Below, one piece after another: positions 2 to 20,138 of a DNA stretch of 29,510 nucleotides. How positions within the stretch are numbered: the first letter of the stretch is position 1; each line of letters starts with the position of its first letter. Source of the DNA: a virus. The notes under the pieces are model-generated. The model was not told where the DNA came from, searched no databases, and saw only the letters and a list, made by a program, of their open reading frames with translations. Both the position numbers and the translations under genes were made by a program. The stretch spans positions 1-29,510 of the IMG/VR virus record IMGVR_UViG_3300027974_002422, one strand, 5' to 3'.

Positions 2-1732
2 ATCCAATCTAACAGCTTGAAAGGTTCGACCAGTCTCTCTACCATGGGAACTTTGGACTTATTAGGGGCTAATTCAAACGCTACTACAACTTATGTCATG
101 AACCAATATCAAGGTAATAACATGAACTTTACCAATCATGGTGGGAATAAGACATTGCTTCAATTTACTAATGCTGCAAGTACACTCACTACTTCGGCAG
201 GTACCAGTGGTGGTAGAAGGCTGTTTAACAACAGTACCAATCTAACTGTGCAGTTTGATGGTACTTTGGACATTGGAGGCACCACAGCAGATAACAGTCT
301 TGTAGGTGGTGTAGGTGATTTTATTTTCAAAGGTTCACTATTTAACACAGCTGCTGCACTCAGAGGTTTAACTAAGTCAGGAACTGGAACAGCAACCTTT
401 CAAGCAGTCAATGCTTACAATGGAGATACTACCATACAAGATGGTACATTTATAGTTGATACTGCTGGTTCTATTGCCTCTAGTGCTGCTGTAGTGTCAG
501 GCGGTACTTTGAGAGTCAAAGGCATTGCAGGTAATGTAGCCGCTAACAGTGGAAGACTAATAGTTGATAGCACTGGAACCATTGGTAATTTTTCCATTGG
601 AGTTACCACTACTGTATCGGTAGATGGTACAACAGGCACAATAACACAAGGAGGAGGCACTTTGGACTTAAGAGGAACTGGCAGTACATTCTCCATGTCT
701 GCAGGAACAGCTACTGTATATAGTGGAGCGTTTCTTGGTAACTCAACTCTCACAGGAGGAAGCTTGCTTAATAGCGGTACAGTAGGCGATACAACTATTG
801 CTACAGGCAGTACGTTTGATGTGAAGACAGGTGGTACCTCTTCTCAGGCTACTGTTAATGGCGGTACCTTGTTGGTATCAGGATCTGTGGCACAAACTGT
901 TGTTAATTCTGGTACAGCCACAGTAAATTCTGGTGGCAATTCTGGTACTACAACTGTTAATGGCAGCATATTGGATGTGTATGGAAGAACTGGTGTATCC
1001 ACAGTTAATACAGGTGGCACACTCAATGTAAAAACGGGTGGCAGCCTCTTGGGTACAAGCACTGTAGGAGGTGGCACATTGCTAGTAGATGGAACTGCTG
1101 GTACAGTTATAGTTAACTCTGGAACTGCTACAGTAAATGCAGGGGGTTCCATTGGTAGCACTACAGTTAACAGTGGTCTGCTAGCTGTGAATGGATCTGC
1201 AGGAGACATATTAGTTAATACAGGTGGTACTTTTGGTGGTTCTGGTAGCGTGCAAGGCCTAACACTCAATGGTGGTACTGTGGCCCCAGGCAACAGCCCG
1301 GGTCTGCTAACTGCCTATGAGTTGAATGGAAGCAATGGAACATTCCAATTCCAGTTAGGTGCACCTACCACCAGAGGGGTAACATATGATGCTATCAATG
1401 TAACTAGCCTATTAACATTAGGTGCCAATACAGCATGGACATTTGAAACCTTAGACAATTATGCATATGTAGATGGTAACACATATGACTTGTTTGATTG
1501 GGGTACAGCTGACATGAGCACATTTGATGTAGCAGTATTACAAGCAGCTCTACCTGATCTCAACACTGCCAGTACAGATCTGAAATGGAATGTTAGTAAC
1601 TTTACTTTGGACGGTACAGTAGGTGTTATTCCTGAACCTTCTACCGGTTCACTCATGGTGTTTGGTATTGTTAGCTTGATAACACTCAAAGCTATAAGGA
1701 GAAGAAAATGCCAACACCAAATACATTCCTAA
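2..1732 (+). CDS. PEP-CTERM surface protein with autotransporter-type beta-strand repeats (5' partial)
   Basis: The frame is open to the left edge with no stop, and the first internal start codon is only a TTG at 17, so the gene very likely begins outside the window. The product is almost entirely Gly/Thr/Ser/Asn/Val-rich beta-solenoid sequence. One unit around residues 119-150 (GLTKSGTGTATF ... NAYNGDTTIQDGTFIVD) matches the autotransporter-associated beta-strand repeat, and many degenerate TVNSGGT units follow. A closing GGSGSVQGLTLNGG-VAPGNSPG block is typical of this class. The last ~33 residues form a PEP-CTERM sorting signal: Pro-Glu-Pro, one hydrophobic span, then RRRK. In bacteria, exosortase cleaves this signal and the protein goes to the surface or matrix. 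No exosortase is visible here, so host machinery would be needed. There is no autotransporter beta-barrel. The 3' end overlaps the next gene by 25 nt. Confidence 0.85.
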   Translation: MQSNSLKGSTSLSTMGTLDLLGANSNATTTYVMNQYQGNNMNFTNHGGNKTLLQFTNAASTLTTSAGTSGGRRLFNNSTNLTVQFDGTLDIGGTTADNSLVGGVGDFIFKGSLFNTAAALRGLTKSGTGTATFQAVNAYNGDTTIQDGTFIVDTAGSIASSAAVVSGGTLRVKGIAGNVAANSGRLIVDSTGTIGNFSIGVTTTVSVDGTTGTITQGGGTLDLRGTGSTFSMSAGTATVYSGAFLGNSTLTGGSLLNSGTVGDTTIATGSTFDVKTGGTSSQATVNGGTLLVSGSVAQTVVNSGTATVNSGGNSGTTTVNGSILDVYGRTGVSTVNTGGTLNVKTGGSLLGTSTVGGGTLLVDGTAGTVIVNSGTATVNAGGSIGSTTVNSGLLAVNGSAGDILVNTGGTFGGSGSVQGLTLNGGTVAPGNSPGLLTAYELNGSNGTFQFQLGAPTTRGVTYDAINVTSLLTLGANTAWTFETLDNYAYVDGNTYDLFDWGTADMSTFDVAVLQAALPDLNTASTDLKWNVSNFTLDGTVGVIPEPSTGSLMVFGIVSLITLKAIRRRKCQHQIHS

Positions 1733-2376
1733 GACATTTAAGACTATTAAGACTTACACATTTTGGCTTTACATTAGTTGAAATGGCAGTTGTAATAGTT
1801 ATAATGGGATTATTAATGGCCATTTTATTTCCAGGGTATGCTGCTGTTAAACGCAAGTCATCTCAAGCTGCTTGTGCATCCAACATGAAACAAGTAGGCA
1901 CATCAATTGTGTTGTTTGCAGCAGAAAATGATGGATGGCTCCCTCCAGGTCCTTCTGGTCAAACAATTAATTCGTTTATTAGCGATTCTAGATTTGGTAG
2001 CGATACATCAAATGTTGTAGATACATCTAATCTGGAGTATTATCTTACAAATTATATATCAACTAAATCTCTAGGGAAAAAAAAGAGAAAAGGCAATCCT
2101 GTCTTTTCATGCCCAGCTCATGGTGAAAAGCGACCTTTGATTTGGAAGAGAGGATCTTGTTTTGGTGGAGCAGGAGGGCAATATGGTACACAAAATTCAG
2201 AAAAATTAATTGCAGTAGATACAAATGATTATTTTTTAGTTGACTTCACTAAAGCTTTCACCAATCATTCTGGTGCATCTTTAGATAGAACAATGAAAAA
2301 TCCACATGGCGTAACCAGAAACTTATTAAGAACAGATGGTAGCGTGACAACAGAACTGGATAACAAGGCAAGGTAA
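1708..2376 (+). CDS. Prepilin-type protein with H-X9-DG motif (type II secretion/type IV pilin-like)
   Basis: A 222-residue protein. A short basic leader ends at Gly20, followed by FTLVE (Glu25 is the conserved E5 of the mature pilin) and a ~20-residue hydrophobic helix. This is the classic prepilin peptidase cleavage and N-methylation signal. The C-terminus carries His200-X9-Asp210-Gly211, the H-X9-DG signature of pseudopilin-like proteins that are abundant in Planctomycetota, Verrucomicrobiota and Lentisphaerota. The start is supported by AAGGAG at 1696-1701, six bases upstream and inside the preceding gene, so the two are translationally linked. The next gene overlaps its stop in a TAATG. 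The role is inferred: a structural pilin or pseudopilin displayed on the envelope. No pilus ATPase or secretin is present in the window. Confidence 0.85.
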   Translation: MPTPNTFLRHLRLLRLTHFGFTLVEMAVVIVIMGLLMAILFPGYAAVKRKSSQAACASNMKQVGTSIVLFAAENDGWLPPGPSGQTINSFISDSRFGSDTSNVVDTSNLEYYLTNYISTKSLGKKKRKGNPVFSCPAHGEKRPLIWKRGSCFGGAGGQYGTQNSEKLIAVDTNDYFLVDFTKAFTNHSGASLDRTMKNPHGVTRNLLRTDGSVTTELDNKAR

Positions 2377-2840
2377 TGGAGTATGTGTCTATATCACAAG
2401 CTATTAAGGCTGCTGCAGATCTTAATACGCCTTCCACTGAGTATCTTAATAATTTCTTGCCTGCTTATAGAAAGTACCATAAGAGGCAGAATGTCAGAAG
2501 AGCAGTTTGCAAAATTGGTTCAGGTCTTGCAGTCTTTGTAGTTGCATGTCTCTGTTATTCATCTATAAATAATAGTAACAAGCTGGATATTAATACAGCT
2601 TCAGGAGGCGAAATGGCACAAAACAATACACATGGCAAACAAGTGGTATTTGAAGGGGATGTAAGAGAAGTTACAGACTTTATAAGAAAACATGTCAAAG
2701 AAAAAACTCAAACCATAGGCTTAAAAGAACATTTTGATGCAGATGTTTGGGGAGTGTATGTAGAGGGTGAAGAGAAGTTTAGGTTTTATTATCAATGTCT
2801 AGGCCATGGGAGGTACTCAGTCTTTGTTATCAATGATTAG
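2376..2840 (+). CDS. Single-span membrane protein, function unknown
   Basis: A 154-residue protein I do not recognise. A soluble, basic N-terminal part (residues 1-44) precedes one hydrophobic segment around residues 47-64, and a ~90-residue domain follows on the other side of the membrane. The layout resembles bacterial anti-sigma or secretion accessory proteins with a short cytoplasmic region, but no family motif is visible. The start codon overlaps the pilin stop (TAATG), which indicates translational coupling and a shared transcript with the surface-protein operon. Confidence 0.65.
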   Translation: MEYVSISQAIKAAADLNTPSTEYLNNFLPAYRKYHKRQNVRRAVCKIGSGLAVFVVACLCYSSINNSNKLDINTASGGEMAQNNTHGKQVVFEGDVREVTDFIRKHVKEKTQTIGLKEHFDADVWGVYVEGEEKFRFYYQCLGHGRYSVFVIND

Positions 2841-3075
2841 AATTGAACTATTCATTTGCACTTTCTTCACTGCAATAGCCTTGTGGATGCTAAGTCTTTA
2901 CTTTAAAGATAACACAATTGACGACAAAATGCGCATGGCATTAAATGAAGAGAAGAGTAAAGCAGAAGATTTATATTATAATGAATTGGCGGTCAACCAT
3001 CCTCTTGTTATTATGAATACCAATAGCTCTCTTATTCAGTTAAAAAAGAAAACAAATAAACTTGTTTTCAAATGA
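2833..3075 (+). CDS. Small N-terminally anchored membrane protein
   Basis: An unrecognised protein of 80 residues from this ATG, which overlaps the preceding stop by eight bases. An in-frame ATG at 2806 would add nine residues. The downstream start is preferred because the product then begins directly with a hydrophobic anchor (MIRIELFICTFF...). A charged, probably helical region and a lysine-rich C-terminus follow. It sits in the middle of a chain of coupled small membrane-protein genes between the pilin and the FecR protein, so an accessory or assembly role for that operon is a reasonable guess. Confidence 0.55.
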   Translation: MIRIELFICTFFTAIALWMLSLYFKDNTIDDKMRMALNEEKSKAEDLYYNELAVNHPLVIMNTNSSLIQLKKKTNKLVFK

Positions 3076-3392
3076 ATAATTTTATTCCATATGTAGTTGG
3101 ATTGTGCCTTGCAGGTAGCATTTTTTATACAGTTTATAGCCCTCATTCATCCATGGTAAAGCAACATATAGACTCATATGGCATGGATTTTGAATACGTG
3201 ACACCTGAAGGTTCTTGTTTTACACAAAATATAGAACCCATTGGTCATGATAGCCACAAATACATTTTAAGCTTGGGCAAACCTGCAAAACCTACAAATA
3301 CAGAAGAGCCTTTGTATGTGATGGTCGGGTATACCATGAAACAAGTAAGAGTTAGATACAGATCTAATGCATTAACATCTAATAATCTATAA
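3072..3392 (+). CDS. Small N-terminally anchored membrane protein
   Basis: A 106-residue protein with no recognised family. A hydrophobic helix near residues 5-24 is followed by a ~80-residue soluble domain that ends in Ser/Asn-rich sequence. The start overlaps the preceding stop in an ATGA junction, so it is almost certainly co-translated with the upstream gene. The soluble part would lie outside the inner membrane if the anchor is an uncleaved signal. Confidence 0.55.
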   Translation: MNNFIPYVVGLCLAGSIFYTVYSPHSSMVKQHIDSYGMDFEYVTPEGSCFTQNIEPIGHDSHKYILSLGKPAKPTNTEEPLYVMVGYTMKQVRVRYRSNALTSNNL

Positions 3393-3393
3393 T

Positions 3394-3576
3394 ATGCCAT
3401 TCAATTTTTTAGACAAAGACAAGTGCAAAAGAAGCTACTATTATCAGGTGGCCGATATTTGGCATAGATTAAGTAGTGATCATCCCATAAAGCAGGTTTT
3501 AACGTCTCTAATATTCATTGGCATACTAGGCTTAATAATTCATTTTATTTTTAAACTCTTTTCTAATGATTTTTAG
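3394..3576 (+). CDS. Very small C-terminally anchored membrane protein
   Basis: A 60-residue protein. A charged N-terminal half (basic and aromatic residues) is followed by one strong hydrophobic segment at about residues 37-56, giving a tail-anchored or holin-like topology. It starts one base after the preceding stop, which supports membership of the same operon. No homologous family is evident from the sequence. It is short enough that coding status rests mainly on context. Confidence 0.5.
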   Translation: MPFNFLDKDKCKRSYYYQVADIWHRLSSDHPIKQVLTSLIFIGILGLIIHFIFKLFSNDF

Positions 3577-3596
3577 TTTCAACTGTCTAATACTAT

Positions 3597-4505
3597 ATGA
3601 AAACGTTAATTTGCTTAGCCTTAATAGCAGTAGCAAGTCATAGTGCATCTGCTACCACAGTATCCTTCTTAAAGAATAGCGTATATAGAATAGACAATAC
3701 AAACAAAGTCACAGCTGTATTAAATGATAAGGTAGAATCTAATACACAAGTAGGTACTGGTGAGCAGAGCATGTGTGAATTATCATTAGATGATAAGTCA
3801 GTAACACGCGTTGGAGCTAATGCTGTCTTCTCATTTGTAGAACAAGAGCGTTTGGTTAAATGCGACGAAGGAACATTTCTGGTTTCTAAAGATCCTGTAA
3901 CAGAAACTATGACAGTTACCACCGGTAGTGTTACTGCTGCTGTTAATGGCAGTACTGTAATGTTTGATGTTAGAGGAGATGCAACACATGTTGCTGTGGC
4001 CGAAACAACTACTGGAGTTGTTGTGACAGATAAGAATGGTAAATCTGTCACATTGCAATCTGGTGAAGGTATCTCTGCAACACCTGCAGGCATGGCATCT
4101 GCCACTCCCAGATCTGTGGACGTTAAAGATCTAACATCTTCACCTCTGTTTACAGAAGCAGGGTTGGCTCCTCTGGCTAATAATGCTTTAATTAAAGGTG
4201 TTGTAAGCGCTCAAGAATCTGCAAAAGCTGCAGGCATATCTTTTACAAGTGAAATTAATGATGTGGTAGCTGGTAGAATTGATAGCGCTACTGCTTTGGC
4301 TAGAGCAGGAGGTATGGATGTACCTGGTGTTGATGTACCTGATATTGATACTGCTGCAGGAGGTGAAGCTGCAGGTAATAATGCACCAGCGGGTAGTGGG
4401 GCAGGAGCAATTTCTGGATCGCAACAGTTTAATCCTTTAATGAACCCTAATCTTGTTCCTCCAGTTAACTCCAAACCCAACCCATTTGAAGCTACTCCCA
4501 TTTAA
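3597..4505 (+). CDS. Secreted FecR-domain protein
   Basis: A 302-residue protein with a clear Sec signal peptide (residues 1-19, likely cleaved after SASA). A FecR-type beta domain follows at about residues 25-165. Its hallmarks are VGTGEQSMCELSL-DDKSVTRVG, then E-x-L-VKCDEGTFLV, then VTTGSVTAAVNGSTVMFDV and VVVTDKNGKSVTLQSGEG. The C-terminal third is low-complexity Ala/Gly/Asn/Pro-rich and ends with several Asn-Pro motifs. Classical FecR proteins are anti-sigma regulators, but stand-alone secreted FecR domains are common in PVC bacteria and are thought to be envelope structural or adhesive modules. It is last in the PEP-CTERM/pilin operon. No Shine-Dalgarno sequence precedes the ATG. Confidence 0.75.
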   Translation: MKTLICLALIAVASHSASATTVSFLKNSVYRIDNTNKVTAVLNDKVESNTQVGTGEQSMCELSLDDKSVTRVGANAVFSFVEQERLVKCDEGTFLVSKDPVTETMTVTTGSVTAAVNGSTVMFDVRGDATHVAVAETTTGVVVTDKNGKSVTLQSGEGISATPAGMASATPRSVDVKDLTSSPLFTEAGLAPLANNALIKGVVSAQESAKAAGISFTSEINDVVAGRIDSATALARAGGMDVPGVDVPDIDTAAGGEAAGNNAPAGSGAGAISGSQQFNPLMNPNLVPPVNSKPNPFEATPI

Positions 4506-4622
4506 GCTTAACTCAACTTAATTACACACATTTGCATAAGTAATATTACCAGACAGGCTTTTATCGCACAAATTGAATTAACAACAGCCAGCCCAGCAAC
4601 CATTGCAGGCATAAGAAATGCA
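4506..4622 (+). other. Open upstream reading frame of the beta-helix gene without a usual start codon
   Basis: The frame of the following gene is open from 4512 (TAA at 4509) to its TTG at 4623 but contains no ATG, GTG or TTG. From about 4560 the translation (AFIAQIELTTASPATIAG ...) looks like genuine protein rather than leader. Either the real start is a rare codon, or the gene has lost its original 5' end or suffered a frameshift here. Confidence 0.4.
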
Positions 4623-5621
4623 TTGAGTGCTGCTCCTATTGGAGTGCCAGTGACCAGTCAATATTTTGTTGATGCCAACAGAACTGATGATTACACACAA
4701 GATGGCAACATACTAACACCATACAAAACATTGAGTGCAGCATATGCAGCTGCAAAAATTGGAGCTGCCATGCTCAATCCCAAGTACATCAACTTGCTCA
4801 GTAGCATCACAGAAAATCTCACCATGGACACAGGTTATGTAGGGTTGCAAGGGTTCACCAATTCTGGTGTAAGAGCTCCATTGTATTTGAATGGTACCAT
4901 CACCATTGCTCCTACTGCAGGCTTAATCACTGACAATTTTTTTGGCATCACAAATTTGGCCATTCTCAAGCCTGAAGTGACCAGTGGCAATTGCATTGAT
5001 GTGCTGGGTGGTGCTGTTCCCTTGAGAGTATTTTTAGAATCAGTCTGGTTGCAAAATGGAAGCCCCGGTTCTTTTGGAGTAAACATTAATAACACAGGAG
5101 CATCAAGTGTCGTCAATGGGCAGCTGAATCAATTCAGTCCTTTTGCTACAGGCGGAGGAATTCAGGTAATTAATGGCATTTGCAACATGGTGGATTGTGA
5201 TTCAACAGGAGGTTCTGCTTCCTGTGACAGCATGTTTGCTGCAGCTAGTGGAGGCAAATTAAACTTCGCTCGGTGTCAGCTGGAGGGCAATGCAACACAC
5301 ATGATCAAATGTTCAGGGGGTGATTATGGTACTTCTGGTTATAATATCACGCTCGGCCAAACTTTGTTAACCAACAATCGCTCCACTGGACATGGAATAA
5401 CTTTGTCTGCAGGTTCTCTTGCATCCATTGGCACCTGTGGACTCAACATTCTCACTGGATCTGGTGCCAAAGCCATCAACGGAGTGGCTTCAGCAAATCT
5501 GGCTACTTTTCCATATTCACTGGTTCTGTTTGATAGTGTGACTTTCGTGAATGCCGCCGGCATTATTGCCCGGAATACTACTGTTACCACCAACAAAGCA
5601 GCATACTCGGTGATGAGTTAA
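4623..5621 (+). CDS. Beta-helix fibre/adhesin-like protein
   Basis: 332 residues from a TTG start, which is uncertain because the frame continues open upstream. The segment at residues 12-50 (YFVDANRTDDYTQDGNILTPYKTLSAA) is the usual entrance to right-handed parallel beta-helix proteins of the pectate-lyase fold, where a Tyr-hydrophobic-Asp strand leads into G-x-P-(Y/F)-KT-(L/I). The rest is short beta-strand repeats rich in Gly/Asn/Ser/Thr. Such proteins in phages are tail fibres, tailspikes or neck decorations that bind or cut surface glycans. No catalytic residues can be assigned by eye. It ends four bases into the convergent gene at 5618. Confidence 0.65.
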   Translation: MSAAPIGVPVTSQYFVDANRTDDYTQDGNILTPYKTLSAAYAAAKIGAAMLNPKYINLLSSITENLTMDTGYVGLQGFTNSGVRAPLYLNGTITIAPTAGLITDNFFGITNLAILKPEVTSGNCIDVLGGAVPLRVFLESVWLQNGSPGSFGVNINNTGASSVVNGQLNQFSPFATGGGIQVINGICNMVDCDSTGGSASCDSMFAAASGGKLNFARCQLEGNATHMIKCSGGDYGTSGYNITLGQTLLTNNRSTGHGITLSAGSLASIGTCGLNILTGSGAKAINGVASANLATFPYSLVLFDSVTFVNAAGIIARNTTVTTNKAAYSVMS

Positions 5622-5937: not shown

Positions 5938-6420
5938 CTAATCAGTGAAGCTTGAAGGCACAGACCAATCATCCACAACAAAGCTTCTTTTAATTTTATA
6001 CCGATAGCATTTTTCAATAAACTCTGTACACATTCTCTCATATTGACTTCTGGCAGTAGCCTTGCCCACAAGCATGGTACCCCATACTGGATCATATATC
6101 CATAATTTGTTTTTATATTCAAATATGGACACTGCATGTCCAAATATCTGCTTGTTATTAGTATCATCTCCCAGGTAGTAAGTGAATCCATATATTGATG
6201 AATATGCTTCAACATCACTCTTTAAAACTAAGCTTGCACGTGAAGAATGTATCAGTGCTTCAATAAAACAAGAATTGGGTAGATCTGTATAAAACTTAGA
6301 AGATGTACCATATACACGTTTACCTTCTAATATACCGAAAATAAAAGTAACATAGGTTATAGCACTAAAAACACCCAGTAAAACAAGTGGTTTAATTAAT
6401 CTCTTACAGAAGCTATACAA
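5938..6420 (-). CDS. Membrane-anchored papain/transglutaminase-like protein
   Basis: A 160-residue protein read from TTG; no ATG or GTG is available upstream in frame before a stop. An N-terminal hydrophobic segment (about residues 10-31) acts as signal or anchor. The remainder has the order Cys51 (in NSCFIEA), His95 (in FGHAVSIFEY) and Asp110 (in IYDPVWGT). These match the Cys-His-Asp triad spacing of the transglutaminase/NlpC-like papain fold, where GHA-V and YDP are typical neighbours. It follows the endolysin by 19 bases, so it may act on the envelope during lysis or entry, for example as a peptidase or amidase. The catalytic assignment is by eye. Confidence 0.6.
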   Translation of the reverse strand: MYSFCKRLIKPLVLLGVFSAITYVTFIFGILEGKRVYGTSSKFYTDLPNSCFIEALIHSSRASLVLKSDVEAYSSIYGFTYYLGDDTNNKQIFGHAVSIFEYKNKLWIYDPVWGTMLVGKATARSQYERMCTEFIEKCYRYKIKRSFVVDDWSVPSSFTD

Positions 6421-6928: not shown

Positions 6929-7086
6929 TTGTCAAAGGAGCTTTCATCAAATTTTGTTTTTGATGCATCTTCTGCTGCTTGCATTGTTGGGGCATTTGGA
7001 TATTTTGTGGGTTCAGATTTATACCCAGATACAGGTGAGCAACCTGACACAACAAGTAACACAAGCCCCAGTATAATTTTGTTCAT
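6925..7086 (-). CDS. Small lipoprotein, candidate spanin or lysis accessory
   Basis: A 53-residue protein with a lipoprotein signal (MNKIILGLVLLVVSGC) and a short polar mature part. An in-frame upstream start at 7113 is rejected because the ATG at 7086 forms an exact ATGA overlap with the preceding stop. The position directly before the endolysin and the small outer-membrane lipoprotein form resemble an o-spanin, but no matching inner-membrane spanin is obvious. The function is inferred from place only. Confidence 0.65.
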   Translation of the reverse strand: MNKIILGLVLLVVSGCSPVSGYKSEPTKYPNAPTMQAAEDASKTKFDESSFDK

Positions 7087-7502
7087 TTGATCAGATCTTT
7101 TGTCTTGTCCCAAATAGAATCAGGCTCCTTACCATCTTTACGCCACGAGTTTAATATGGCATAATATACCAAGTGTTGCTGATCTATGATATAAAGCTTG
7201 TTGTTTAGCTTGTCAGTGAATTCTGTGACGCCATCGTTTTCATTTAATTCAACACCTTTAAAAGATTTGAATCTTACCTTATACGCTTTAATAAGCGTGT
7301 TGTAGCGGAGCAGACCAAAAGGAGTAATGAGACCCCGGCCGTCGTCAGTAAAGCCAATGAAGCCAGAGTTTTGTACATCGTATCCAGAGGGTGTTGTTGC
7401 ATCATAAGAGGCTATCTCATCCTTTACTTTATCTGGTGTAACTGTTGTACACGAGCATAGTAACAGACTACTCAGAGAGAATATCGCGAATTTTCTTAAC
7501 AT
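7083..7502 (-). CDS. Lipoprotein of the lysis region, unknown function
   Basis: A 139-residue protein with a signal peptide ending in LLLCSC, a plausible lipobox, followed by a ~115-residue soluble domain. No family recognised. Its start overlaps the preceding gene by 35 bases in another frame and its stop overlaps the next ATG, so it is embedded in a translationally coupled chain between the holin-like and endolysin genes. Confidence 0.65.
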   Translation of the reverse strand: MLRKFAIFSLSSLLLCSCTTVTPDKVKDEIASYDATTPSGYDVQNSGFIGFTDDGRGLITPFGLLRYNTLIKAYKVRFKSFKGVELNENDGVTEFTDKLNNKLYIIDQQHLVYYAILNSWRKDGKEPDSIWDKTKDLIK

Positions 7503-7665
7503 TTTTATCCTTTACTGCTCTTTCAATCTCATCATTGAAGTCAGCTTCTTTTTGTTGCAATTGAGCTTTCTTCATCTCTGGTGTATTCTTTGCACCAAAC
7601 ACATTGTTAATAGCTTGAAATATCCCGGAGATCGCACCAATTATTGCTTCAGCTATTCCAGGCAT
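7468..7665 (-). CDS. Small protein with hydrophobic N-terminus and charged helix
   Basis: A 65-residue protein. The N-terminal ~25 residues are hydrophobic and Gly/Ala/Ile-rich (MPGIAEAIIGAISGIFQAI). The remainder is a highly charged, probably coiled-coil helix. An N-terminal hydrophobic helix plus a periplasmic coiled coil is the architecture expected of a small i-spanin, but a virion or holin-like role is equally possible. It begins one base after the upstream gene's stop and overlaps the downstream lipoprotein by 35 bases. Confidence 0.6.
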   Translation of the reverse strand: MPGIAEAIIGAISGIFQAINNVFGAKNTPEMKKAQLQQKEADFNDEIERAVKDKNVKKIRDILSE

Positions 7666-7666
7666 C

Positions 7667-8128
7667 TTAGTTTACGTATTCTTCTGTAGCCGTCCTGCAT
7701 CCCTTGGCAATTGCATTAAGAACATCGATACCAAGTTTTGCGTCACCATTGAGCCTGGCGAATTGTGCTGCATAAATATCTTTAACCGCTACAATATATT
7801 TTGCCCAGTGTGCTTTATCTGCAGGCAAATAATCTGACAAAGCTTTTTGCAATTGATCTGGTGTGGGTGTTGATCCCTGCGTAAGAGCTTCAACTACTGT
7901 AGCAACATGGTTAATTAATTTAGCTTTTTCGACTTTATCGTCGGGTGAGAGAGCCTGCTCAAGTACAACAGTACATGTGAGTGTAACTGCAGGAGCGATA
8001 TATGGTAGCGCTGCTTCAACACCGGATCTAGGATCAACAGTGCCACCCGTGGAATTGCCTCCATTATTAGTTGTAGCACAACTCGTCAACAAGATTGGAA
8101 TTAAGATAAAAGGTAGTAATTTCTTCAT
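7667..8128 (-). CDS. Lipoprotein, unknown function
   Basis: 153 residues from the ATG at 8128. The open frame extends further upstream to 8275, but that extension overlaps the preceding gene, and the signal peptide begins exactly at this ATG (MKKLLPFILIPILLTSC, with LTSC as lipobox). The mature protein starts Thr/Asn/Gly-rich and continues as a mostly helical ~110-residue domain (SPDDKVEKAKLINHVATVVE ...) that ends RTATEEYVN. No family recognised. It is the third lipoprotein in the lysis region. Confidence 0.65.
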   Translation of the reverse strand: MKKLLPFILIPILLTSCATTNNGGNSTGGTVDPRSGVEAALPYIAPAVTLTCTVVLEQALSPDDKVEKAKLINHVATVVEALTQGSTPTPDQLQKALSDYLPADKAHWAKYIVAVKDIYAAQFARLNGDAKLGIDVLNAIAKGCRTATEEYVN

Positions 8129-8132
8129 ACTG

Positions 8133-8408
8133 CTATTTAGTACTTTCCTCTTGCAGTTCAACTTTTTTACTATGCCTTCTCTCCTGTGACGTGCGACTGA
8201 TGGATTGATCAACAAAGGCTCGAACAGCGATAACACCCTGAAAAATACTATTTGCAATAATGATTGTTGCCGCAACAGAAGTTATATCTGTAAATGATTT
8301 ATACTTACCAATTTCTGCAATAAATGGAGGCAGCGATGCTATTAAAAAATAAAGCAAAGCACGGAACCATGCACAATCTTTCATAAAAGTATTTATTCTG
8401 TCGTTCAT
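8133..8408 (-). CDS. Holin-like two-span membrane protein
   Basis: A 91-residue protein with two hydrophobic segments (about residues 15-33 and 43-66) and a strongly charged C-terminal tail (SQERRHSKKVELQEESTK). Size, topology, charged tail and position as first gene of the endolysin cluster all fit a class II-type phage holin, which forms lesions in the inner membrane to release the endolysin. No specific holin family motif was recognised. A CTATAAATC motif at 8419-8427 lies upstream and could be its promoter. Confidence 0.6.
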   Translation of the reverse strand: MNDRINTFMKDCAWFRALLYFLIASLPPFIAEIGKYKSFTDITSVAATIIIANSIFQGVIAVRAFVDQSISRTSQERRHSKKVELQEESTK

Positions 8409-9025: not shown

Positions 9026-9432
9026 GGGGCTGTAATGGTATCGATTGAACAGTGGAGTTCATGAGAGCAAGTACCGGGGCATGCCGGTTTACCAATAGCA
9101 ATTATATTAAATGCCGAAGATAACTTCGACATGGCTATGAGTCTCGAAGAAGCTGATGCAATTCTTGCAGCAGCAGGCTTTGTAGATGCAGAAGCCGAAC
9201 TCGAGCTAGTTTAAGCTCGATCGTTCTACTGTAGATTAAAGTTTGTAAAGTAGAGCGTGTTACTAACTTTCGTGTAGTTTGGGTTTTAACAATTAATAAA
9301 CTACATGTACAAAATTGTTATGAATAAGGGCTTTTTGTTTGGTTTAATCCTTATGAAATCTTAACTGAAATAAACTTGTAGTGCTTGTGAGTGAATCTAT
9401 TCAAGACGAGAGTTCAATTCTCTCCAGCTCCA
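9026..9432 (+). ncRNA. ssrA: tmRNA (transfer-messenger RNA), one-piece, with long tag
   Basis: The 5' GGGGCTG pairs with 3' CAGCTCC (9425-9431). The third pair is G-U, the alanine identity signal of tmRNA, and A9432 is the discriminator; CCA is not encoded. The T arm is perfect: GAGAG, loop TTCAATT, CTCTC (9408-9424). The 5' part has the conserved AATGGTATCGATTGAACAG. The long P2 stem is visible (CAAGTAC 9068-9074 with GTGCTTG 9381-9387). Pseudoknot pairings include 9271-9280 with 9298-9307 and 9287-9294 with 9313-9320. The RNA rescues stalled ribosomes with SmpB. The resume codon is most likely GCC at 9113 after TTAAAT, and the tag frame runs to TAA at 9212-9214. Confidence 0.95.
9113..9214 (+). 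CDS. tmRNA tag-peptide reading frame (33 codons)
   Basis: From the presumed resume GCC the frame encodes AEDNFDMAM ... and contains EEADAILAAAG; it ends AELELV before TAA. Usual tags have about 8-15 residues, rarely up to about 27, and end LAA or similar. This one is longer, very acidic and lacks the terminal LAA that ClpXP recognises. The start is inferred from the TTAAAT context, which resembles the E. coli TTAGTC before its resume codon. GCA at 9098 is in the same frame and would make the tag longer still. Confidence 0.75.
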   Translation, partial: AEDNFDMAMSLEEADAILAAAGFVDAEAELELV

Positions 9433-10322
9433 GGATTATTAAGCCAATTTTCAATACTTATCTCTGGATTAAACCTCAGCATTTTTTGTATTTTTTGTAT
9501 GTTTGCTAACGTGGTCTTTGCTTCCCCCGGTCTCTCGGGTATATGCATTGTGTTATTTGATATCATGCCCGCTATTTCATTTACACTATAATTCCTCCCA
9601 GTACCCACGTTGAAGACTTGACCTAATATAGGACCTTCGGCCTGCATTCCTAATATATTCGCTTTTACAATATCAGACACGTGTACGTAGTCTCTACGCT
9701 GCGTCCCGCTACCAACTATTGTTAGCGGTGTCCCATCTGCTTTCTGACGTAAGAATATACCAACAACAGGTGCATATTGACCAGCAGTTGGCGAACGCTC
9801 TCCATAAACATTAAAGTACCTAAAGATTAAAGTATCAAGCTTATATAGCTTTGAGTACATTCTGCATAGCTCTTCACCGCAGAATTTTGTTGCTGAGTAT
9901 GGGTTCAAGCAATCTATAAGAGCAGTCTCATCTATCGGTACAGTTTCGTTCAGACCATATACTGATGATGTAGATGAATACATGACTCTTTTCACACCAT
10001 TTAGTCTTGAAGCGTTCAAGATGTTTGCGGTACCAGTTACATTTGTTTTCACTGCATATAGGGGATTAGCTATAGCTGTCTGTATGCGTGATTCTGCTGC
10101 TAAATGAAATACATAATCAACATCACGAAACAACGGTTCAATCAAATCATAATCCTGAATGCTATATTTAAAATACAGTGCTTTATTATTAAAATAAAAT
10201 TGCTCGTTAGAGACTGCTGAACAATCATCTATTACAGTTACATGGTAACCAGTCTCTATGAGTCTGTCGACTATATGACTACCTATAAATCCACATCCAC
10301 CGGTGACTACTATTTTTTTCAT
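9414..10322 (-). CDS. NAD-dependent nucleotide-sugar epimerase/dehydratase
   Basis: A 302-residue extended short-chain dehydrogenase/reductase. The Rossmann motif GGCGFIGSH is at 8-16. HLAAESRIQTA follows, then YSSTSSVYG at 115-123 and the catalytic Tyr142-X3-Lys146 in PYSATK. GERSPTAGQYAPV and the substrate-binding RRDYVHVSDIV are further on. The family includes UDP-glucose 4-epimerase and related NDP-hexose or heptose epimerases; the precise sugar cannot be told. It is the last gene of the glycan run and starts in an ATGA overlap. Its final five codons and stop are antisense to the tmRNA acceptor and T arm. Confidence 0.88.
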   Translation of the reverse strand: MKKIVVTGGCGFIGSHIVDRLIETGYHVTVIDDCSAVSNEQFYFNNKALYFKYSIQDYDLIEPLFRDVDYVFHLAAESRIQTAIANPLYAVKTNVTGTANILNASRLNGVKRVMYSSTSSVYGLNETVPIDETALIDCLNPYSATKFCGEELCRMYSKLYKLDTLIFRYFNVYGERSPTAGQYAPVVGIFLRQKADGTPLTIVGSGTQRRDYVHVSDIVKANILGMQAEGPILGQVFNVGTGRNYSVNEIAGMISNNTMHIPERPGEAKTTLANIQKIQKMLRFNPEISIENWLNNPGAGEN

Positions 10323-11221
10323 AAACTATCCTTAATTAAATTTTTAAATTTCGTTGTAGACCAACCGGAGGATCTATCGTGATACACAATGGGAATATTT
10401 AAATTACCACCAGTAATACGTTGTTCATCATTTATATAATCTGTACCTAAAAATCTCACATCTATTCTCCCTGTACTCAAAATCTTCAACAAATCCTCTT
10501 CAGTTTTGTAAGGTACAACCTCATCAACCTGTTCTAGTGAATTAAGTATATTAAACCTTTCTTCTATCGATAGAACTGGCTTGAGTTTATTGGGTCTATA
10601 CGTTGCATCTTCATGTAACCCTACAATTAGATAATCACAATGCTTCTTTGCAAAATTAAATAACTCAATATAACCAGGGTGGATAACATCAAAACATCCT
10701 GCAACAAATCCAGTTTTTTCTACAGGAAAGGTTACGCTGTGTAGAATAGCCTCGTGTGCACATTCAACTAATCCATAATCATTACTATCAACCCAGAAAT
10801 CTAAATGTGCCGCATCTCCATACAATTGTCTAAGTTTGTTATCAATCTTAAAACCTGTCAATATTATAAATTGTATGCCATGCACAAAGCAATATTTTGC
10901 GGCATTAATTATATTAAGAGATTCGCCTGATGAAGAAATCAAAATTACTGTTGACGAAGGAGAGGCAAAATGTTCTAAAAACTTTTCATAAGCATTCTCC
11001 ATTCCATAATCATTAATATAGCAGGTAAGTCTAGATGCATCGGAAAAAGAAAAACTTTTCTTACCCAAGACCTTTGTATAATCTTGCGATATATGTGAAG
11101 CAATTGCGTTGCTACCACCATTGCCCAATATTATAATTTCCTGAGAATTAGCTATTAAAGCTTTGAGCTTCGACAGACTTTTCGTGTCTATTTTCTGCAA
11201 GATGTCAATATATTTTGTCAT
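10319..11221 (-). CDS. SIS-type phosphoheptose isomerase fused to a cytidylyltransferase-like domain
   Basis: 300 residues from the ATG at 11221 (an upstream TTG at 11245 is less likely). Residues 1-165 are a sugar-isomerase (SIS) domain of GmhA type, with phosphate loops GNGGSN (33-38) and SSSGES (96-101) and a GmhA-like VECAHEAILH (152-161). Residues 170-300 form a nucleotidyltransferase domain of the TagD/HldE-C superfamily: GCFDVIHPGY, YLIVGLHED, EERFNIL, GTDY and a terminal STTKFKNLI. The usual HxGH reads HPGY. It would isomerise sedoheptulose 7-phosphate and couple a sugar or polyol phosphate to a nucleotide. Neighbouring HddA-like kinase fits. Confidence 0.82.
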   Translation of the reverse strand: MTKYIDILQKIDTKSLSKLKALIANSQEIIILGNGGSNAIASHISQDYTKVLGKKSFSFSDASRLTCYINDYGMENAYEKFLEHFASPSSTVILISSSGESLNIINAAKYCFVHGIQFIILTGFKIDNKLRQLYGDAAHLDFWVDSNDYGLVECAHEAILHSVTFPVEKTGFVAGCFDVIHPGYIELFNFAKKHCDYLIVGLHEDATYRPNKLKPVLSIEERFNILNSLEQVDEVVPYKTEEDLLKILSTGRIDVRFLGTDYINDEQRITGGNLNIPIVYHDRSSGWSTTKFKNLIKDSL

Positions 11222-12167
11222 ATATGTTTGTAGCAATTGTACCAACAGTGGATATTGTTATTTTAATATGTAGCTTTGAGGATGCTATACTTGGTATTGT
11301 ATCTTTTGAGGTAATGACAAGAAAAAAACCACCCCCACCTGCTCCGCAGAGCTTATGGCAGAGGACTTTTGCATCTGAATAGAGAGCATTGTCCACGTCA
11401 CTAAGATCACCAGAACAAATGTAGGGTGATGTTTGTTTTTTAGTAATCCAAGAATTTCGAATGACCTTACACATTTCCGCTATATTATTATTGTTAATAA
11501 AATACTCTAATTGATCTACATCTGCAAGGTGGTCATGGCTTTTATCGATATCAATGGTTTTCAGAACATTAGTTGACTCCCGATTTTTTTCCGTAAAAAC
11601 CAAATACATATCAATACTATTAAAGATTTCCGGATTTAAATAGGTAAATGTTGGTGATTTGTCTTTGTAAAATGTAATTTTCTTCAATCCACCTATTCCA
11701 CTTCCATAAAAATCTTGCTGACCCACCAAAGGATTAAATTTTCTCTCTAATTGGTTTGCAATATCACAAATTTGTATATCAGTTAAAGGGAGACTTTTCA
11801 TGACACTAATGGCCTTTATAAGGGATATTAGATAGGATGATGATGAGGCGAGTCCTGACCCAGAGGAAAATATATCCGATGTCATTGAACATGTATTGTA
11901 GGGAACGTTAAAATAAGTAAATGCCTCTCTTATAATATCGTTTTCTATTTCTTCAATACAGCTGCATTCCTCACGCCTTGTATAGTTTGCTATATATTTT
12001 TTATTAATTTGGGTCAATCCCAATTTATCTTGATGCAGAGTGATATATGTTCTAAGATTAGATGTAAAGCTTATAACAGACCCAAAAGGATATTTTTCTA
12101 AAAAATATGGATGATCAGTTGACCCGCCTACTAGAGAGATTCTTAAGGGACAACTTGATACTATCAT
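11205..12167 (-). CDS. GHMP-family sugar kinase, HddA-like (heptose 7-phosphate kinase)
   Basis: A 320-residue protein with all three GHMP signatures: N-terminal PLRISLVGGSTDHP, the ATP loop GSGLASSSS at 103-111, and C-terminal CGAGGGG at 274-280. The GQQDFYGSGIGG at 149-160 (Asp152) corresponds to the GxxDQ-xxxxGG of D-glycero-D-manno-heptose 7-phosphate kinase. The predicted reaction is phosphorylation of C1 of heptose 7-phosphate on the route to a nucleotide-activated heptose. A fucose- or galactose-type kinase is the main alternative. It overlaps the isomerase fusion by 17 bases and the upstream methyltransferase by one base (TAATG). Confidence 0.82.
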   Translation of the reverse strand: MIVSSCPLRISLVGGSTDHPYFLEKYPFGSVISFTSNLRTYITLHQDKLGLTQINKKYIANYTRREECSCIEEIENDIIREAFTYFNVPYNTCSMTSDIFSSGSGLASSSSYLISLIKAISVMKSLPLTDIQICDIANQLERKFNPLVGQQDFYGSGIGGLKKITFYKDKSPTFTYLNPEIFNSIDMYLVFTEKNRESTNVLKTIDIDKSHDHLADVDQLEYFINNNNIAEMCKVIRNSWITKKQTSPYICSGDLSDVDNALYSDAKVLCHKLCGAGGGGFFLVITSKDTIPSIASSKLHIKITISTVGTIATNIYDKIY

Positions 12168-12820
12168 TAGAATCTGCTATTTTTAAAAAATAGACCCCGT
12201 GAAAGAAAGTGTGATATAAAAAACGGTGCTGCAGGGTCTTTTAATCTTTCATCTTTATCCAACAGAGCATTGCCTACAAGTTCAGTAGTTTCATGTTCAA
12301 GATAATAAAAACCATATTGTGTGAAAACATTCTTCCAGTAATCTGGGGTATTTTCATTAACATGATGATGACCGCCTTGACCAGGTGCAGCGTACGTCAT
12401 TGCAATATATTTGCATTGTTGAAAAGTTTTCATAAAGTTTGAAACATATTGCTGCTCAACATGCTCAACAAATTCACATGACCAACCCAGATCAAATACT
12501 ATCTCTTTATTATCTTTATCTGTAACTATACAACTATCAGTAGCATAATCATGCAAAATAAATTCTTCCGGGCTCAATAGCGTCAATTCTTGTGCTTGCT
12601 TACTACCATCTATCCCTCGAACAAAACACCCTAAACTCTTGAAGAACTTTGCAGAATATCCTCTACCACACCCAACATCTAGCACGCTTTTGATATTAAA
12701 TTTGTCTACCAAAGTATTCCACATTATTGGATAATATGTTCCACCATCTCCACCCTTGGCCCATCCTCCAAGATGCCCCTCTGTTACAGATTCACCATGT
12801 GTTTGCTTAATTATTTCCAT
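12167..12820 (-). CDS. SAM-dependent methyltransferase (class I)
   Basis: A 217-residue protein. Motif I SVLDVGCGRGYSAKFF is at 45-60 (DVGCGRG 48-54), the acidic end of beta-2 in VRGIDGSKQA, and WSCEFVEHVEQQY is the post-motif region. GQGGHHHVN follows. It closely resembles the methyltransferase at 16471-17067, sharing TEGHLGG/NEGHLGG at the N-terminus, DVGCGRG, FVEHVE-QY and GHHHVN. It probably methylates a sugar or its attached group in the surface glycan made by the neighbouring enzymes. The exact substrate is unknown. Confidence 0.85.
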   Translation of the reverse strand: MEIIKQTHGESVTEGHLGGWAKGGDGGTYYPIMWNTLVDKFNIKSVLDVGCGRGYSAKFFKSLGCFVRGIDGSKQAQELTLLSPEEFILHDYATDSCIVTDKDNKEIVFDLGWSCEFVEHVEQQYVSNFMKTFQQCKYIAMTYAAPGQGGHHHVNENTPDYWKNVFTQYGFYYLEHETTELVGNALLDKDERLKDPAAPFFISHFLSRGLFFKNSRF

Positions 12821-12823
12821 AAA

Positions 12824-13813
12824 TTATTTTAAAAAGACCTCGTTGAACTGATTCATAATATTTTTTGCAGAATATGCATTACTATACACGTCCCACTCTT
12901 TATCTGTAAAATCTCTTAAAGAAATATTCTTTAATATAGTCTCGAGAGCGGATCCATCCTTATACTTGATACAGGTATCCCCTAATGTAACAAGATGGCC
13001 TGTATCATAATGACCAGGTGCTTGATCTGGAGCCCAAGTAATAATAGGTTTATTTCTTACAGAAAATTCAGCCGTAGATAGCGAAAAAATTTCTCCATCC
13101 CATCTAGCATGAATCATTGCATCACATGTATTGATGAATCTGCACTTCTGTTTTTCATCCATAGTCCATGGTAAATATTTTACCCGCGGGTGGTTGATAA
13201 AGGCATTGGTATTTAGAAAAACGTAATAAAGGTCATCCCTTTGGTCAATGGTATTTCTTATAGCATCTTTAACAAAATCTAGACTAAATGTATCACTACC
13301 ACCATGTCTTCCTAAGACTAATGCATCCTTAGGGATACCTAGTTCTTCCCGGTAGTCCTCATTGTAGTCAGCATGTTCTTTTTCTATAATATGATAGACA
13401 TGCGGGTGTTTAGAGCCGTGCTTATCTGAAATATATTTACACACACCAGCGTAAACATCGCCATGCGGTTGATCCATTCTAAAAATACAATGGGCTAGTC
13501 TTTTTGTATTTCTAGGCATAAAACCATCATCTTCACCACCTTTAATTGCATAAAAATGTGTGACACCGTTTTCTTCGCATACTTTTTCTAGTACTGCCCT
13601 GAGCTCATCGTTTTTACCATCAGGTAGCCATACGTTATTATAGAGAAAAGTTGGAAATTCTTTGAATCGATTCAGACTGGGCGTTGGTCGAGAGGAGGTT
13701 GATATAATAATAGACTCATTCCCTAATATCTCTCTATTATACTTTGCATATTTATATAGACAAATTTCTGTACCTCTCTCCCCGAGCTGGTACGAATGAA
13801 ACGCAATCTTCAT
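12824..13813 (-). CDS. Glycosyltransferase, GT-B type
   Basis: A 329-residue protein. The second half has a GT4/GT1-like donor-binding region: ALVLGRHGGSDTF around 164-176, RVKYLPW at 210-216, and ARWDGEIFSLSTAEF at 236-250. This parallels the E-x7-E loop of these enzymes, followed by KPIITW. The N-terminal half begins MKIAFHSYQLGERGTE, like many retaining glycosyltransferases that open with a Gly-rich acceptor loop. It starts in an ATGA overlap with the dehydrogenase-like gene. Donor and acceptor are unknown. Confidence 0.75.
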   Translation of the reverse strand: MKIAFHSYQLGERGTEICLYKYAKYNREILGNESIIISTSSRPTPSLNRFKEFPTFLYNNVWLPDGKNDELRAVLEKVCEENGVTHFYAIKGGEDDGFMPRNTKRLAHCIFRMDQPHGDVYAGVCKYISDKHGSKHPHVYHIIEKEHADYNEDYREELGIPKDALVLGRHGGSDTFSLDFVKDAIRNTIDQRDDLYYVFLNTNAFINHPRVKYLPWTMDEKQKCRFINTCDAMIHARWDGEIFSLSTAEFSVRNKPIITWAPDQAPGHYDTGHLVTLGDTCIKYKDGSALETILKNISLRDFTDKEWDVYSNAYSAKNIMNQFNEVFLK

Positions 13814-14547
13814 TTAAGTTTTAGTATATAATCAAACGCAAGACTATCAAATATTGTTTTTAATAATTCTGTATTTGGAACTACGCAATGACCACCAATT
13901 TTACCGCTAGGCGGGTATAGAACCGGGCGTGTTACATTTGACATGCCGAGTTTGTCATACCCATCGTTATATGTTGTATTCCATTTCGTTGCAACATCTT
14001 CGAAGCTTACATCATATTTATCACAGAGTTGCTTAACATCATTATGCCAAGCAATACAGACACCATAGTATGTTGTGCAAAGTATTTTAGCTAATTCTGA
14101 TGTTGTGGAACAAGGAAGCTTTTCTACCTTTAAACCTAGTTGATGAAGATGCTCTTCTGCTGCTATGGCTGACCTTTCATTAGTACCACCAACATACTTA
14201 ACAAACGTTTTTAACCCATCGTAAAGCTTGGGATGCACCCCCCTAACAGGGCTATGTACTATGAGTTGACCATCTGGAAGTATGCTTGCTATTGTTTTTG
14301 TTGTCCCAGGAATAATAGTTGAGTGTATTATTGTTAATTTTGCCTTTGTCTGCAATACTGTTGAACTGACAATATCTATAAAATCTTTTGAAAAGGGAAT
14401 GCAGATATTTAGAACATCTAAGTTTTCAAGCCCATCATCCCGGTTCAAATCTTTTATTTTTAAAATAAAATTTTTACCTAGATAGCATTTTTCTAAAGAA
14501 GATCCTATCTCACCGTAACCTAATATGCCAACAGTTTTTTTACTCAT
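13810..14547 (-). CDS. Shortened UDP-sugar (UDP-glucose/GDP-mannose) dehydrogenase-like protein
   Basis: A 245-residue protein. The NAD-binding GILGYGEIGSS is at 7-17, IIHSTIIPGTT (73-83) and HSPVRGVHP (98-106) are typical of UDP-glucose/GDP-mannose dehydrogenases, and the linker helix ELAKILCTTYYGVCIAWHND follows. GKIGGHC at 215-221 matches the GGHC that holds the catalytic cysteine. The protein then ends about 25 residues later, so the C-terminal UDP-binding domain (full enzymes have about 400-450 residues) is absent. It may be a reduced dehydrogenase with another substrate, or need a partner. The start overlaps the epimerase stop in ATGA. Confidence 0.72.
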   Translation of the reverse strand: MSKKTVGILGYGEIGSSLEKCYLGKNFILKIKDLNRDDGLENLDVLNICIPFSKDFIDIVSSTVLQTKAKLTIIHSTIIPGTTKTIASILPDGQLIVHSPVRGVHPKLYDGLKTFVKYVGGTNERSAIAAEEHLHQLGLKVEKLPCSTTSELAKILCTTYYGVCIAWHNDVKQLCDKYDVSFEDVATKWNTTYNDGYDKLGMSNVTRPVLYPPSGKIGGHCVVPNTELLKTIFDSLAFDYILKLK

Positions 14548-15497
14548 ACTTTATAATAATTGTACACATCATCTACTATTTCATCAATATTATATCGAGG
14601 AGACCACCCTAGTAAATTAATAATTTTATTTGCATCTGGAATCTTGTCCCATGCTTCCTCATATAGAGGGCCATGAATAGTCTTTGGGTCAACTAAAGTT
14701 ATTTCTGACTTTGAAGAAGCAACCTTGTGTAAAACTTTTTCTGCGAGTCCCCGGATTGTTGTGATGTTATCCTTATTACCAACATTCCAGACTTCATTCA
14801 TTTTATTAGACACACTTGTAAGATATATACCATCCACAATATCCTTCACATGGGTAAATGCTCTTACCTGATTACCATCACCAAATACTGTTATTGGCTG
14901 ATCATGTAAAGCCTGCAGCATAAATGTAGGGAGCACAAAGCCACCATTCTTCAACTGGCGAGCACCACTTATGTTGAATGGTCTAATAATTTGATATTGA
15001 ATATCGGAAACCTTTGCAGTATTGCTGAGCACTACTTCAGCTGTAAGCTTGGCCATCGCGTATTCATTTCTAACCTTATACTCCCCAACAAGAATTTTAT
15101 AATCATCTTCTTTTAAGAAAACAGCTTTATCACGATAGCCGTATATTTCTGAGGTACTTACAAATATTAACGGACATTTATTTACCTTTGCTCCTTCAAT
15201 TCCCCAATAGATATCTTCTAGTATATATTTGGCCATTTTTCCAGAATGCTTGAGTATGCCTGCAGGTCCAACAGGGCTAGCCAAATGTACTATCAAATCA
15301 AATTCTTTAGTATTCCACTTGTAGCTCAAAACATCTTGCTTTATGAGCTTAACTGATTGTAATAATGTATTAGTATCATCTACCGTGGATGTGGTAAAGT
15401 TATCTATAACGGTTACATCAAACCCCTCAGCAAGATATTTTTCTATTGAATGGGTGCCAAGAAAGCCAGCACCGCCCGTAATAAGAACTTTAGGCAT
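14544..15497 (-). CDS. NAD-dependent nucleotide-sugar epimerase/dehydratase
   Basis: A 317-residue extended SDR enzyme. The Rossmann loop GGAGFLGTH is at 8-16, [10 protein letters not shown] at 71-80, STSEIYG at 114-120, and Tyr146-X3-Lys150 in [19 protein letters not shown] and [11 protein letters not shown] follow, with a closing [14 protein letters not shown]. The S-E-IYG and P-FN-GARQ segments resemble UDP-glucuronate decarboxylase/ArnA-type and dTDP-glucose 4,6-dehydratase branches. The neighbouring dehydrogenase-like gene would fit a UDP-glucuronate-to-UDP-xylose route, but this is inference. It differs clearly from the epimerase at 9414-10322. Confidence 0.87.
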
Positions 15498-15526
15498 ATA
15501 AAAGTTTATACAATATATTCAAGAAA

Positions 15527-16474
15527 TCAAGATATGGATGTTCTAATAGTCTTGACTATTTCAATTGCTCTAGCCTCTGTGGTACCAACATTATAAAGCC
15601 ATTTTCTTTGTTCTGCTAAATAATAAAAATATTCTTCCGTTGGCTTGTTGTCTACTAATAATCTATTAACGATAGCGTCCAATTCATCTCTTGTTGAGTA
15701 AGATAGGCAGGGAAGATTTTGAGGTGAACACAAGATGGGTTTCTTATTATAATCTCGGAAGAGTAAAACTGTGCCTGCTGCTATAATTTCATAGTGTCTC
15801 AAACAGTCCCATCCACCCTTTCTACATGTCAATCCAAACCAAGATTGCTGTAAATCATTGTAATATTCTTCTTCATCTGTAAACCTATGATGAGATGTCC
15901 CGCCACCTAAATCATTCACTTGCTCAAAGATTGCTGCATCAGGTGCAGTTTTTTGAAAAAGTTGATTCTTTATAGACAAATTAACTGGTCGAATTCTATG
16001 AACCGGTATACCAAAGCCTGTTGGAAAAACTTCTTCAATATCTTCAGTTAACTCTCGTTTAAAGCTCTTTTTAAACTGCGCACCTATTACAGTTTCATTA
16101 TTATGAGTAATCATGCGCGGGGCATTGCCATATAGATCGTGTCCGTCTAACACCCATACATTGCTAGAAATAGATTTTAATTCAGATAGCTTATCTTCAC
16201 CATACATGTGGCCATCACCATATAATATTGCATCAATATCTATTAGATTTCTTTCTTTTTCTGATATATCCAATACAGGGTAAGTTAATAGACTAAATCC
16301 TTTTCCATGTAATGTATTTTTTGGTGTAGCACTAAAATCATGATACATAATCTTCTTCTTGGGGTAATCAATACAATTTTGACTTAGTATCGATCTCAGT
16401 CCGTGTAGAATAGATACCTCAAGCAAATCGCCCTGCTTATCAGGGGCGATTGTTGGTACAAACACTAACTTCAT
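15527..16474 (-). CDS. Glycosyltransferase-like protein (GT-B C-terminal half)
   Basis: A 315-residue protein. The best landmark is at about 216-240, TCRKGGWDCLRHYEIIAAG, followed by TVLLFRD. This has the form of the donor-site loop of glycosyl transferase family 1-like and exostosin-like enzymes, where a bulky-acidic helix precedes G-T/A-V. The N-terminal 200 residues show alternating strand-helix sequence without a recognised motif. It lies between a methyltransferase (ATGA overlap) and an epimerase. The role in glycan assembly is inferred mainly from this motif and from context. Confidence 0.6.
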   Translation of the reverse strand: MKLVFVPTIAPDKQGDLLEVSILHGLRSILSQNCIDYPKKKIMYHDFSATPKNTLHGKGFSLLTYPVLDISEKERNLIDIDAILYGDGHMYGEDKLSELKSISSNVWVLDGHDLYGNAPRMITHNNETVIGAQFKKSFKRELTEDIEEVFPTGFGIPVHRIRPVNLSIKNQLFQKTAPDAAIFEQVNDLGGGTSHHRFTDEEEYYNDLQQSWFGLTCRKGGWDCLRHYEIIAAGTVLLFRDYNKKPILCSPQNLPCLSYSTRDELDAIVNRLLVDNKPTEEYFYYLAEQRKWLYNVGTTEARAIEIVKTIRTSIS

Positions 16475-20104: not shown

Positions 20105-20138
20105 AGTATTATTATATCGATTGTCAGGTGTTTTGCAA

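Follow-up and report, generated by a model that had tools for sequence, protein, structure and literature searches.

Why should a phage carry an operon of bacterial-type surface proteins? The question is raised by a viral record of 29,510 bases (IMGVR_UViG_3300027974_002422 in IMG/VR), which was analysed whole and is called the window here. Positions 2-4505 encode a secreted beta-repeat protein with a PEP-CTERM-like tail (PEPC), a prepilin-like protein (PilX), small membrane proteins and a FecR-domain protein. This operon is real and owned by the phage. We propose, with a probability of about 0.5, that it is a phage-resident envelope cassette, which moves between phages and re-coats the infected host, probably against superinfection.

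The operon is compact and lies on the plus strand, in the order PEPC (2-1732), PilX (1708-2376), m154 (2376-2840), m89 (2806-3075), m106 (3072-3392), m60 (3394-3576) and FecR (3597-4505). A preliminary description of the window had claimed a PEP-CTERM beta-repeat protein, an H-X9-DG prepilin, four small membrane proteins and a secreted FecR protein, linked in one direction. All were found where they had been placed, and the linkage was borne out, with successive overlaps of 25, 1, 35 and 4 nt followed by gaps of 1 and 20 nt. The operon is not a product of chance, since 33 other contigs repeat its gene order and sequence under purifying selection.

These relatives are viral contigs retrieved from IMG/VR by FecR, PilX and PEPC searches, each with at least one of the three genes. 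The 33 further records (34 with the window) carry the cassette or parts of it and reach 217 kb. The order o160 - PEPC - PilX - m88b/m72b or m154 - m106 - (m60) - FecR slot was largely kept. A terminase was present on 11 of 25 cassette records, in several of them a few kb from FecR. Contig G009 (217 kb) has TerL, tail sheath and tail tube genes, and its cassette is surrounded by endonuclease-like, exonuclease-like and other phage-type open reading frames (ORFs), as judged by eye. In G019, PhoH lies to the left of the cassette and TerL to the right. In the relatives, one flank holds PhoH among other phage genes, and the opposite flank a fibre gene and lysis genes or the terminase/portal region.

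The preliminary description had feared a chimeric join near 4505-4623, and had suggested checking the flanks, the codon usage and the viral databases for PEP-CTERM proteins accompanied by FTLVE proteins. Many such operons were found in viral contigs, with phage genes on both sides of the cassette. A chimera is excluded because the junction between FecR and the following fibre-like gene (4505-4620) recurs in L002, L004 and L007, which stem from other metagenomes. Third-codon guanine-plus-cytosine content was mostly within the range of each phage; that of PilX and FecR in the window was about two standard deviations below the mean, i.e. more AT-rich and not host-like. The resemblance of the domains to bacterial ones is what favours host contamination, a chimera or recent capture of host genes, and such an origin is extremely unlikely. 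Independent contigs repeat the junction and the gene order, the third-codon composition is not that of a host, and recent capture as the sole origin was rejected for want of a close bacterial relative of PilX in GTDB. The m154/m88b proteins were not found in 388 Verrucomicrobiota, a weak negative, as the search had no positive control.

The larger contigs were assigned to lineages by ORF comparison: lineage I comprises G000, G006 and G009, and lineage II comprises G013, G019, G022 and G023. When G009 (293 ORFs) was compared with G013 or G019, 22-25 ORFs outside the cassette matched, with a median identity of 41-43%, and only five or six of them reached 60% or more. TerL was identified in both lineages and is hardly alignable between them. 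Across the same lineages, PEPC, PilX and FecR are 74-80% identical. The comparison shows the same cassette in two otherwise unrelated phage lineages, and with it horizontal sharing. PilX of lineage I formed one group; bases 1-1050 of PEPC were not sorted by lineage, with L007 (lineage I) falling among lineage II. The first part of the window PEPC is nearer lineage II and its last part nearer G009. Judging from these affinities, the PEPC body is recombined across the lineages. The ratio of nonsynonymous to synonymous substitution rates was 0.04-0.25 in the cassette (for PEPC without L007 and L014), indicative of purifying selection.

The lysis-region genes o139, o65 and o202 (window 7083-8275, minus strand) are among the few others common to both lineages. 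These three belong to the endolysin and lipoprotein genes that come after the cassette in the window, an arrangement consistent with a role in egress, in which the cassette would weaken or reorganise a verrucomicrobial envelope for virion release. Such a role appears improbable, as the lysis genes are ~12 kb off in G019 and not adjacent in L010, and the cassette resembles a surface-display set.

PEPC is cut at its 5' end by the contig edge. Its full-length relatives, mostly ~690-985 amino acids long, have in addition a signal peptide (seen by eye) and about 240 residues, a region missing from the window copy. A PATR repeat was detected in PEPC (PF12951, 27.7 bits; cut-off 27), and the tail, VIPEPSTGSLMVFGIVSLITLKAIRRRK, has every element expected of the PEP / hydrophobic / basic layout. 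The PEP motif is invariant in 11 PEPC relatives, and nearly all relatives with an intact end have a PEP-CTERM tail on PEPC. In L058, L064, L079 and L081, two to four PEP-CTERM genes stand in tandem within one phage.

PilX exceeded the cut-offs of two prepilin models (N_methyl, PF07963, 23.7 against 21.2; TIGR02532, 24 against 16.3). It has a prepilin peptidase signal (GFTLVEM), followed by a hydrophobic helix, and near its C-terminus HGVTRNLLRTDG is an exact H-X9-DG motif, whose H, D and G are invariant in 11 relatives. With 84% mean column identity, PilX is the most conserved cassette member. Its assignment to Verru_Chthon cassette protein D was rejected, since TIGR02596 gave 23.1 bits against a cut-off of 70 and matched the N-terminus only. 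In several contexts the cassette adjoins fibre-like genes, and its products might be virion components such as fibres or decoration. This is very unlikely, as the signal peptides, the PEP-CTERM tail and the prepilin signal indicate export through the host membrane.

The four ORFs between PilX and FecR each have a hydrophobic segment (by eye) and no family. The single-pass protein m154 has a C-terminal domain, and its LDINTASGGE lies close outside the membrane; its predicted structure was poor, with a predicted local distance difference test (pLDDT) score of 51.6. Its counterpart in lineage II is a pair of proteins, m88b and m72b. For the 89-residue m89 no other contig has a relative, and it is apparently an insertion of ~0.2 kb specific to the window. 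Conserved in the cassette is m106, while m60 is mobile and was also located outside the cassette in L003, L005 and L006.

FecR exceeded the PF04773 cut-off (31.8 against 24 bits). It was rejected as a sigma-factor regulator, which would have a cytoplasmic anti-sigma part and an inner-membrane anchor, because the N-terminus appears to be a signal peptide, after which comes the FecR domain. Further features are PDIDTAAG and a conserved C-terminal tail, PPV.S...ATPI. The slot is exchangeable: its occupant is a FecR protein or an unrelated small secreted protein, and almost every one ends in PPV-x-S...ATPI, some with a short extension beyond it. The FecR domain is swapped for small secreted proteins with the same tail in L030, L032, L034, L060, L072-L075 and L079. 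A motif of the D-x-x-TA[AS]G type is common to two unrelated cassette proteins, m154/m88b and the FecR-slot protein. All 23 m88b/m154 proteins collected have it, at the same position close outside the membrane, and so do all slot proteins of the FecR type in which that region is present.

A further frequent cassette gene, o160, encodes a membrane-anchored protein resembling papain- and transglutaminase-type proteases. In many lineage II contigs the next gene 3' of o160 is PEPC, or a tandem PEP-CTERM gene that precedes PEPC; in the window o160 is displaced to 5938-6420 on the minus strand. Neither this gene nor the presence of the cassette in unrelated phage lineages had been noticed in the preliminary description. 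The protein has an N-terminal helix, and C51, H95 and D110 are invariant in 14 sequences; from their spacing and the modelled fold, they are assumed to form a putative catalytic triad. The model (pLDDT 69, core 80-90) was nearest to vasohibins by Foldseek (probability 1.00, E 0.004, template-modelling score 0.4), with a weaker likeness to other papain-like proteases. No Pfam protease matched, and membership in the LapG/BTLCP family was rejected, as o160 had no sequence match to it.

LapG cuts its adhesin at [T/A/P]AAG (PMC13090378), and its relative HvyA affects the capsule and phage sensitivity in Caulobacter (PMC4241560). These transglutaminase-like cysteine proteases would share with o160 a C-H-D triad, the periplasmic side and a link to the surface layer or phage sensitivity, but o160 is anchored in the membrane, does not match the family in sequence and has a modelled structure closer to vasohibins. 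By analogy, o160 could act as a surface-release switch, with m154/m88b and the FecR-slot protein as substrates cleaved at their D-x-x-TA[AS]G-type sites. The constant position of the motif, the invariant residues of o160 and its modelled fold fit such a switch. However, the motif often reads TASG instead of TAAG, in another slot type it is represented only by LDVNAESG or is lacking, and G009 and G006 keep the motif without an o160 having been found in them; the modest fold match and the lack of a Pfam protease hit count against it as well. LapG-type cleavage by o160 may serve as a lead, and the switch as an account of the whole cassette is quite improbable.

Which host could process these proteins? 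Exosortase and prepilin peptidase were each found on 0 of 25 phage records, and integrase on 0 of 18 phage contigs; the records are partly fragments, in which any of these genes could be hidden. The absence of both enzymes fits the earlier claim that the host must provide them. The PEPC profile was searched against Verrucomicrobiota and Armatimonadota. It matched 7 of 388 Verrucomicrobiota (best 1e-50 and 2e-38), at 32-35% identity, and 0 of 201 Armatimonadota genomes; the latter phylum was rejected as a source on this weak negative, obtained with no positive control. FecR relatives were present in 13 of the 388 Verrucomicrobiota, and exosortase in all 10 candidate genomes. No close bacterial relative of PilX was found among GTDB species, the best matches being 45-47% identical over 60 N-terminal residues. 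In G289, G114 and G351 a prepilin gene adjoins a PEP-CTERM gene. This pairing was seen in 3 of 18 prepilin-selected host loci (L123, L125 and L128; in L125 the motif filter missed the prepilin ORF) and is recurrent, with too few cases for statistics. Based on these similarities, Verrucomicrobiota are likely, but not proven, to be the hosts of both lineages.

According to the envelope-cassette reading, an infecting phage would make and export a set of host-type surface proteins. PEPC would enter the Sec pathway via its signal peptide, and host exosortase would recognise the PEP-CTERM tail and sort PEPC to the cell surface. Host prepilin peptidase would mature PilX, which, once inserted, would be a helper of the pseudopilin type. 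Partners in the periplasm or membrane may be provided by the small membrane proteins and the FecR-slot protein, and in many lineage II phages the co-encoded, membrane-anchored o160 may contribute as a cysteine-protease-like member. Competing phages could then not adsorb to the re-coated cell, and released progeny would not be wasted on debris. The preliminary description had put forward remodelling of the host surface, a block to superinfection and a matrix or adhesion function, each of which may apply. Export, timing, surface location, the verrucomicrobial host and the superinfection benefit are what we infer here.

Several points weigh against this reading. The PEPC tail stays below the curated PEP-CTERM cut-offs (PF07589, 17.8 against 20.7 bits; TIGR02595, 13.2 against 16 bits); PEPC is thus classed as PEP-CTERM-like from its layout and not from a model match. 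Some relatives lack PilX or FecR, and therefore neither is indispensable. The host phylum is based on distant homology, 32-35% for PEPC and at best 45-47% for the PilX N-terminus. Finally, a role in adhesion or matrix formation suits known PEP-CTERM biology equally well: in other systems such proteins keep exopolysaccharide on the cell surface and bring about flocculation or adhesion (PMC9850573, PMC12188702).

The adhesion role is the nearest rival: the exported protein, a long beta-repeat protein, would retain exopolysaccharide or aggregate infected cells, keeping progeny near new hosts. The phages appear lytic because no integrase was found on the 18 contigs, which would leave little time for a matrix benefit, although fragments could hide one; we consider this role possible, if on the whole unlikely. 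A wider version of the receptor-masking coat, proposed very tentatively, is a portable, self-contained surface programme traded among unrelated lytic phages of the same hosts. It would combine an exosortase-dependent coat, a pseudopilin helper, exchangeable periplasmic partners with a common C-terminal tail and, often, its own releasing or activating protease acting at the D-x-x-TA[AS]G-type sites.

Downstream of FecR, the fibre-like gene (4512-5621, plus strand) is a neighbour of the cassette, not a member. It has an apparent ATC start (4563) in place of ATG in five contigs (window, L002, L004, L005 and L007), and an ATG in L003 and L006. In four of the five the ATC is preceded by a common stretch, CAGACAGG; it may be a rare start codon or a lost start. 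Weak matches of the ORF at 4623-5621 to toxin B-subunit models (19 bits, cut-offs above 160) were taken as chance. Variable genes 3' of the cassette, often with a MAFIVKRD start (L034 8692-11550, L060 4015-4755, L072 12963-14795), include BspA-type leucine-rich repeats and are possible fast-changing receptor-binding proteins. A long sugar/glycan island occupies 9414-22721 of the window (minus strand), with epimerases, a SIS-cytidylyltransferase fusion, a GHMP kinase, a methyltransferase and, by eye, glycosyltransferase-like ORFs.

Phage morons and superinfection-exclusion genes also form small modules that are exchangeable and act on the host envelope, usually with one or two genes, whereas the cassette is a conserved multi-gene set that would rely on host exosortase and prepilin peptidase. 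Bacterial PEP-CTERM proteins such as PepA of Aquincola have, like PEPC, a signal peptide and a PEP / hydrophobic / basic C-terminus, and need exosortase (PMC9850573). PEPC differs in being encoded by phages whose records have no exosortase, in sharing its operon with a prepilin and a FecR protein, and in its exchange between phage lineages. The H-X9-DG prepilin/PEP-CTERM pairs of Verrucomicrobiota (L135, L128 and L123) show the same pairing, with PEPC relatives of 32-35% identity; the phage cassette adds the FecR slot and small membrane proteins, and its PilX is without a close bacterial relative. PilX, PEPC and FecR had no match in 50,697 deposited phage records; with the terminases of deposited phages, that of lineage II shares only ~24-27% identity. 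In the open-access literature, which excludes most subscription papers, we found no account of PEP-CTERM proteins encoded by phages.

Changes of the host surface by phages are known from single genes; here, a conserved multi-gene set would hijack the exosortase and prepilin machinery of the host. The cassette suggests Verrucomicrobiota as likely hosts for both lineages of large phages, and it offers a route to study the surface role of the PEP-CTERM and H-X9-DG proteins, which are very numerous in that phylum.

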